Assembly: GCA_938009235.1 (NCBI GenBank)
Contig: CALLIK010000004.1
Span: 301,725-365,724, forward strand
Reading direction: 5' to 3'
DNA length: 64,000 bases
DNA from: an uncultured Caulobacterales bacterium
GTDB taxonomy: Bacteria; Pseudomonadota; Alphaproteobacteria; Caulobacterales; Maricaulaceae
Shown: one piece after another, positions 16,237 through 59,453 of the stretch
How the letters are laid out: each line of letters starts with the position of its first letter
Position numbering within the stretch: the first letter of the stretch is position 1
Program-made: the position numbers and the translations under genes
The notes under the pieces: generated by a model
What the model was told of the DNA's origin: nothing
Database searches by the model: none
What the model saw: the letters and a program-made list of their open reading frames with translations, nothing else

Positions 16237-16352
16237 GCTGACTTATTAGGTTCGGTGTTGAGTATTTAAAGTGGTCTGGTAACGAATGATCCACGTTTAA
16301 ATTTATAATTTTATATTTATTATCAGTGTCTTACATATTTTTTCGGAGATAC

Positions 16353-16691
16353 ATCCGCACTTTCGAAACCTATGGCATGATGGACGGGTTCTTTCGGACA
16401 CGGGACAGGTAGGAGCTCATCTGCCGTATCGAAGGACGGTGGGGTTGATCGTATTTGGGTGAGACCAAATACGTGGGACTTTTTGGAGTGAGAGCCGATC
16501 GCCGTGTCTAATGGCATGACTTGCGAGGACAAACTGGCCGCTGCATCAAAAACCGTCGCCGCGTGGTTAGTGCAATTGAGCGTAAGCTCAAATGCACCGT
16601 GCATTGGTTAGCATTCAATGCATTTGGTATTCGCGTAAAAAAACTTTTCTACTTTGGTATTCCATCGTGAATATCACCACGCGGGCTGTCC
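16353..16691 (-). repeat. Copy A of an unnamed structured dispersed element; copy B is at 59143-59453 (+)
   Basis: Reverse complement shares with copy B a 32-nt identical block (16536-16567), tgtccgaaagaacccgtcca, atgccataggttt and other blocks, in the same order; carries stem-loops that covary with copy B. Confidence 0.85.
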
Positions 16692-16762
16692 TGCTTAATT
16701 TAGTCGTCACCAGATAGGCGATCAGCACTTTCGCCTGTGTGCCTATTAGTAAGAGCCACCCC

Positions 16763-58894: not shown

Positions 58895-59142
58895 TATATC
58901 CCCCAGTTTTTAAGGCTCTAATACTTCAGCTTTCAACAATGCAACTAACTTGAGGTAAAGAAGTGCTGTTTTAAGGCAATCACACACACCCTACTCTCAT
59001 TCACAAAGTCATTTAGGCATAAAATAACGCTCACAGCCCATCTAAGTGGCTGCCGAAATGCGATTACCTCCCAACACGGGTTGGGTAGTTGAATTTTCCA
59101 AGGAAAAATCAACAAGGCAGGCGGCAACCCGCCAATAAGATG

Positions 59143-59453
59143 GGACTGCCCGCGTGGTTGATACTCGCGACGGAGTACCGAATAGAATAGTTTTGTTTTA
59201 CGCAGGTATCATTGAACTGGGTTGTAAATCCAATTCACCACGCGGCGACGGTTTTTGATGCAGCGGCCCATGTGTCCCTACAGTTTGGCCATTAGACCTA
59301 GTAGTCGGCTCTCACTTCAAAAGGTCCGGCACAAACCGCGTTCTCACACGCGGTCGCTCAACCCCATCGTCCTCCGAACCGGCAAGCGAGGCCCCGCCTG
59401 TCCCATGTCCGAAAGAACCCGTCCACTATGCCATAGGTTTTGAATGCGGGGAT
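59143..59453 (+). repeat. Copy B of the unnamed structured dispersed element; copy A is at 16353-16691 (-)
   Basis: Same ordered blocks as copy A: 32-nt identity at 59237-59268, tgtccgaaagaacccgtcca, atgccataggttt; homologous stem-loops. Confidence 0.85.

Follow-up and report, generated by a model that had tools for sequence, protein, structure and literature searches.

The window analysed here is a 64,000-nucleotide stretch from the 2.79-Mb draft genome (G000) of an uncultured Caulobacterales bacterium, a relative of Litorimonas cladophorae, and it holds two copies of a dispersed element. Copy A occupies an intergenic region with a 3-hydroxyisobutyrate dehydrogenase-type gene on one side and a MarR gene, in convergent orientation, on the other. 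Copy B shares its strand with both of its neighbours, an esterase gene and a 130-aa gene whose family is unknown. The initial annotation had listed a series of sequence blocks common to these two regions, and all of them were recovered, in place and in the order described. A covariance scan of the whole window returned copy A at 16363-16498 (+) with 122 bits and copy B at 59305-59443 (-) with 151.5 bits, and no significant third copy. The conserved unit extends farther on either side than the bounds first assigned to it, to about 440-500 bp, and is laid out as a promoter-side module, an RNA core of ~280-360 nt, and a 3' module (Table 1).

Table 1. Features of the two element copies in the window, on the strand of the predicted RNA
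Feature	Coordinates	Strand	Basis or remark
Copy A, upstream AATGATCCACG motif, about -103 to -93	16285..16295	+	left edge of the repeated unit in many copies
Copy A, ATCCnCG(C)-type motif at -35	16353..16359	+	sequence, 64 copies
Copy A, putative extended -10 element: TG at 16373-16374, hexamer CATGAT at 16376-16381	16373..16381	+	
Copy A, RNA core, from predicted +1 (GUUCUUUC) to P1 3' strand	16388..16691	+	covariance hit, covariation
Copy A, P2 5' strand CUUUCGGAC, pairs with 16426-16435	16391..16399	+	covariation
Copy A, P2 3' strand	16426..16435	+	covariation
Copy A, P1 5' strand GGGACAG, pairs with CUGUCC at 16686-16691	16402..16408	+	
Copy A, hairpin-1 loop CUCA, kisses UGAG at 16460-16463	16416..16419	+	covariation
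Copy A, hairpin 2 with hexaloop GUGAGA	16452..16471	+	covariation
Copy A, long CCGCGUGGU...ACCACGCGG stem around internal hairpins	16559..16684	+	covariation
Copy A, 3' module (GUCGUCACC AGAU GGCGAU, then hairpin)	16692..16737	+	recurs in other copies; RNA 3' end undefined
Copy B, ATCCCCGC motif at -35	59446..59453	-	
Copy B, putative extended -10 element, TG + CATAGT	59425..59433	-	
Copy B, RNA core, predicted +1 at 59418, P1 3' strand ending near 59142	59142..59418	-	covariance hit
Copy B, 3' module with extra hairpins	59018..59141	-	RNA 3' end undefined

When copy B was used as a blastn query against its own genome, 53 matches were obtained, many with E < 1e-50. With pieces merged, finds of the flanking modules added, and partial copies at contig ends allowed for, the family amounts to ~45-50 dispersed copies per 2.79 Mb. 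Copies A and B do exist as the two diverged copies first reported, but they are merely the window's share of this set, and the inverted orientation in which they had been paired marks no special relation between them. Many contig ends of the draft (C6, C7, C8, C10, C11, C12, C13, C14, and C16) lie inside element copies, and the assembly breaks there because stretches are identical between copies.

The acting strand was read from 64 aligned copies. RNAalifold gave -135.4 kcal/mol for one strand and -92.9 kcal/mol for the strand that the initial annotation had implied. Predicted pairs on the former comprised 800 G-U against 69 A-C combinations, whereas the two were about equal on the latter (263 and 235). 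Among the helices chosen by covariation, individual G-U:A-C counts included 121:0, 90:0, 64:1, and 109:5; the exception to this excess was a very conserved outer stem, at 8:14. Together, the G-U excess and the RNAalifold difference place the acting strand at + for copy A and - for copy B, with predicted +1 positions at about 16388 and about 59418, respectively, and the promoter signature described below falls on the same strand. The RNA is thus assigned to the strand opposite to the one first implied.

Helices were sought by mutual information with average-product correction, which yielded clear helices, and 31 named pairs of the 5' half were scored in an alignment of 55 sequences. Across these pairs, 97.6% of cells were paired and 226 cells had both sides changed, with changes on both sides in 15 of the 31. 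The covariation score was 0.505 compared to 0.231 for shuffled alignments, none of 500 shuffles reached the observed value, and controls with a slid structure scored at most 0.16. By these compensatory base-pair changes beyond controls, the aligned copies identify the element as a folded RNA. Strong covariation among the 64 copies agrees with the nucleotide-level selection on a structured element that had been proposed. Much of what had been taken for free divergence between blocks comes from base-pair changes that compensate each other or from optional extensions of hairpins. A protein-coding reading was set aside: indels of many different lengths separate the copies, and their covariation follows base pairs, not a codon-type pattern.

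The core is closed by P1 (GGGACAG/CUGUCCC), which is paired in 86.8% of cells with few double-sided changes and little covariation, and whose GGAC/GUCC is kept in distant copies. P2, a 9-bp helix (CUUUCGGAC/GUCCGAGAG), is paired in 98.4% of cells (55 sequences) and is compensated in distant genera (CUUUCGCUC/GAGCGAGGG); because it crosses P1, the fold is a pseudoknot. Hairpin 2 carries an almost invariant GUGAGA hexaloop on a stem in which seven of seven pairs have changed on both sides. Its loop kisses that of hairpin 1, with 96.4% of cells paired and a C-G to G-C flip in 5 sequences, and in a second subfamily, as in other genera, pairs of the CGUUA/UAACG and CAUUG/UAAUG types take the place of this contact. 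With loops read out by hand, complementarity to the copy's own partner loop exceeded that in all 20,000 reshufflings. Within G000, copies L206, L207/L208, and L203-L205 have loop pairs that differ from the common one, yet in each the two partner loops match. Since different matched pairs coexist in one genome, the loop-loop contact is most likely intramolecular or made between identical molecules. Further covarying helices lie in the 3' half, among them the CCGCGUGG/CCACGCGG stem (97.0% paired, 5 pairs double-changed). An ACGGU/ACCGC helix suggested by folding reached 17% pairing in the register used and is not claimed.

Anchored on the RNA 5' end (GUUCUUUC), the 64 copies display an extended -10 signature, in which position -7 is T in 100%, position -11 is A in 95%, and positions -15/-14 read TG in 94-95%; in distant genera, TATATT is often present at -12 to -7. 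The signature falls where a sigma-70 promoter of the extended -10 type would have its elements if transcription started at the G of GUUC. An ATCCnCG motif, also seen in other genera, lies at the -35 position, its TCC falling at -34 to -32 in 92-97% of the 64 copies, and many copies have a second AATGATCC-like site ~60 bp farther upstream. These ATCCnCG sites, exemplified by the first two entries in Table 1, are possibly the target of an activator or of an alternative sigma factor. Some -10 hexamers are weak (CATGAT, CATAGT), no TTGACA-like -35 was found in the promoter region of the copies, and inspection by eye revealed no clear intrinsic terminator. Each copy carries a promoter-like sequence of its own on the RNA strand.

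When 84,980 named genomes were scanned for an exact pattern, the element turned up in Litorimonas cladophorae, in one Hellea MAG, and in MAGs of uncultured Caulobacterales, and in no others. The covariance-model search that the initial annotation had advised was conducted on the own genome and its relatives with R1, a model of the element's 5' half, and revealed family-wide occurrence: R1 matches 26 of 119 genomes of the same family, in 5 of 19 genera, and compensated pairing is maintained. Among 385 alphaproteobacterial genomes searched under stricter filters, which weak relatives may escape, R1 returned the own genome and one marginal 24-bit match. Within the genus, copy number ranges from 0 to about 50. 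The element is abundant in one species group, scarcer by R1 in G003 and G015, and undetected by R1 in G001, G006, G007, G014, and G017, and G011 was also without a blastn match. High-copy carriers and non-carriers form roughly separate, poorly supported groups in a single-gene tree.

The own genome also contains a second, strongly diverged subfamily (L203 at G000:C7:548016, L204 at C4:60166, and L205 at C2:222), which has the same promoter module but an RNA that begins GUCUUCUUUCAACGGGCGGUC; L204 has a long extra hairpin inside hairpin 1. Two further divergent copies (L207 at G000:C7:461378 and L208 at G000:C4:268226, with R1 scores of 71 and 63 bits) resemble the copies of other genera in their 5' half and local copies in their 3' part, which suggests mosaic assembly between subfamilies.

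To place the copies relative to one another across species, flanks of 24 copies from L. cladophorae (G013) were compared with those of 32 copies from G000. Thirteen of the 24 had a flank homologous to that of a G000 copy, on the same side and the same strand, where random placement would give about one by a rough estimate, and one short repeat match was the only discordance between flanks. Some positions are common to four or more species. Sequence identity is 0.77-0.79 within a genome versus 0.70 between genomes, and copies at orthologous positions are no closer than unrelated ones (for example, 0.676 compared to a mean of 0.689). Site-to-site linkage in the G000 copies falls from 0.24 to 0.05 with growing distance. 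The greater likeness within genomes than between orthologues, together with this decay of linkage, shows concerted evolution by recombination among copies. One L. cladophorae copy, L180 (G013:C3:330500-335600), combines the 5' flank of G000 copy L018 with the 3' flank of G000 copy L013; this is a rearrangement that broke at the element, an outcome to be expected should the copies mediate rearrangements as well.

Comparison with known RNA families, likewise advised at the outset, gave only two tRNAs and no match to the element when the window was scanned against Rfam at gathering thresholds. Permissive Rfam 15 scans of copies B, L139, and L061 returned chance-level matches only. OLE, ROOL, GOLLD, HEARO, group I and II introns, tmRNA, RNase P, 6S, and SRP RNAs were rejected as identities, as none gave an Rfam covariance match. 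A search of the literature on this bacterial family and noncoding RNA found nothing on the element.

From these data we consider it likely that every copy forms an independent gene, with its own extended -10 promoter, for a structured noncoding RNA that acts in trans. Transcription would begin at GUUCUUUC on the strand identified above, and the core with its 3' module would fold into a compact tertiary structure made of the closing stem P1, the P2 pseudoknot with P1, the kiss between hairpins 1 and 2, and a long branched 3' stem. The multiple copies would supply a high gene dosage and would be held at many orthologous intergenic sites and kept alike by gene conversion, in the manner of rRNA and tRNA genes. 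The compensated tertiary fold and invariant 5' end, without a guide-like segment or an orientation rule, make a role in trans the likeliest, and this would most plausibly be that of an abundant structural or regulatory RNA of the scaffold or RNP type, as for OLE, ROOL, and GOLLD; a scaffold-type role, considered by itself, is a tentative proposal. A guide RNA or the leader of one gene set is considered unlikely, there being no locus-tied variable segment and no orientation rule; the variable segments are alleles shared among copies.

The main rival is a non-autonomous selfish element, SINE-like or MITE-like, that has its own promoter and is moved in trans by a protein, the conserved fold being the feature that the mobilising machinery recognises. 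Dispersal and patchiness fit such an element: the copies are intergenic, mosaic, and found in all orientations, their number varies widely among congeners, 11 of the 24 L. cladophorae positions are not shared with G000 copies, and the copy A site is not conserved, the preceding gene being followed by something else in nine congeners. No clean empty site was recovered, since in non-carriers gene order is not preserved around copy A or the L016 locus. Candidate mobilisers were sought by domain, but Y1 transposase (PF01797, RAYT / IS200-IS605) and TnpB-type nuclease (PF07282) were each found in 0 of 18 congeners. RVT_1 was not found in the high-copy genomes G002, G005, G010, G012, and G013, several of which are incomplete assemblies, and an extinct or very distant reverse transcriptase is conceivable. 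Mobilisation by RAYT/IS200, TnpB, or reverse transcriptase is unsupported by these searches. Two adjacent reverse-transcriptase-domain reading frames do occur in G000 (L120/L121, G000:C3:33305-35210), with no correlation to the presence of the RNA family. The initial annotation had seen no terminal repeats or transposase, and here too neither terminal inverted repeats nor target-site duplications were noticed in the flanks listed, and no shared reading frame adjoins the copies there, as in an autonomous version. Phage, plasmid, and viral-contig sequences gave no match to the element. Old copies at orthologous positions are intact and compensated, which argues for selection or continual repair, and overall we regard a selfish element as unlikely.

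Copies lie in mixed orientation with respect to their neighbours (23, 17, 15, and 11 in four classes), and the neighbouring genes are ordinary and without a common theme, encoding a GTPase, carbamoyltransferase, AAA ATPase, integrase/recombinase, MarR regulator, and transporter. A cis-acting leader or riboswitch-like element controlling the 3'-side gene would account for the involvement of the 3' side in 12 of the 13 shared positions, compared to 7 for the 5' side, for the slight bias of 3'-side genes toward the element's own direction (44 of 72 loci), and for a possible start codon close behind the element in L045/L086. It is highly improbable, however, given that the 3'-side gene runs in the opposite direction at over a third of loci, that the neighbours share no pathway, and that the copies have their own promoter signature, with no coupled terminator or start-site-sequestering hairpin seen. 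The chance that the element instead acts as folded single-stranded DNA (attC-like, REP-like, or in replication or segregation) is close to negligible, for although a strand-specific fold is by itself compatible with RNA and single-stranded DNA alike, and the positions are dispersed, a promoter signature 7 nt upstream of a conserved 5' end has no obvious reason in a DNA hairpin, and no Y1/RAYT was found.

The reading of the copies as genes for a trans-acting RNA invites comparison with known systems. REP/BIME and RIME/ABC repeats are dispersed, intergenic, mosaic, and hairpin-rich, and the element shares all four properties, but it is far longer, has a pseudoknotted covarying fold and its own promoter signature, shows positional conservation, and is accompanied by no RAYT. 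HEARO/OMEGA RNAs of IscB and reRNAs of TnpB are structured, sometimes stand-alone, and multicopy. The element differs from these in having no Rfam match, HEARO included, in the absence of PF07282 from all 18 congeners, and in the invariance of its predicted 5' end (GUUCUUUC), which leaves no room for a 5' guide. OLE, ROOL, and GOLLD, which come closest in kind, are ornate bacterial RNAs with kissing loops whose function is poorly understood (PMC12286853). The element is like them in being long and highly structured, with pseudoknots and kissing loops; unlike them, it has a core of about 300 nt rather than ~600-800 nt and occurs in many dispersed chromosomal copies with no phage or tRNA-island link seen. 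rRNA and tRNA genes are multicopy RNA genes under concerted evolution (PMC5745555, PMC4981973), and the element resembles them in its many structured genes, syntenic positions, and homogenisation within a genome. It has no sequence or fold relation to them and is restricted to one bacterial family, and since it is undetected in some members it is not essential in general.

We rate the element as categorically new as an RNA class, although its transcription is a prediction and structured RNAs whose function is unknown are already a recognised kind. Our judgement leans slightly toward a broader reading, in which it represents a new superfamily of pseudoknotted kissing-loop RNAs in the Litorimonas/Hellea family, with several subfamilies that coexist and share a promoter type, amplification to ~50 genes in some species, evolution as a recombining pool within the genome, and a new biochemical role. 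In that case bacteria would have an equivalent of multigene structural RNA families. Only a small number of large structured RNAs without a known function exist in bacteria, and one that combined ~50 genes per genome with an elaborate tertiary fold, promoter signatures on all copies, and concerted evolution would form a major overlooked part of the transcriptome in a marine bacterial family. Litorimonas cladophorae KCTC 23968 is a cultured carrier, in which expression, structure, and partners are directly testable.

A further observation concerns the GUGAG sequence. A third such motif (GGCUGUGAGCG) recurs in many 3' modules, for example that of copy B (59018-59141), and adds to the hexaloop GUGAGA and the conserved GGAGUGAGAGCCGAC.
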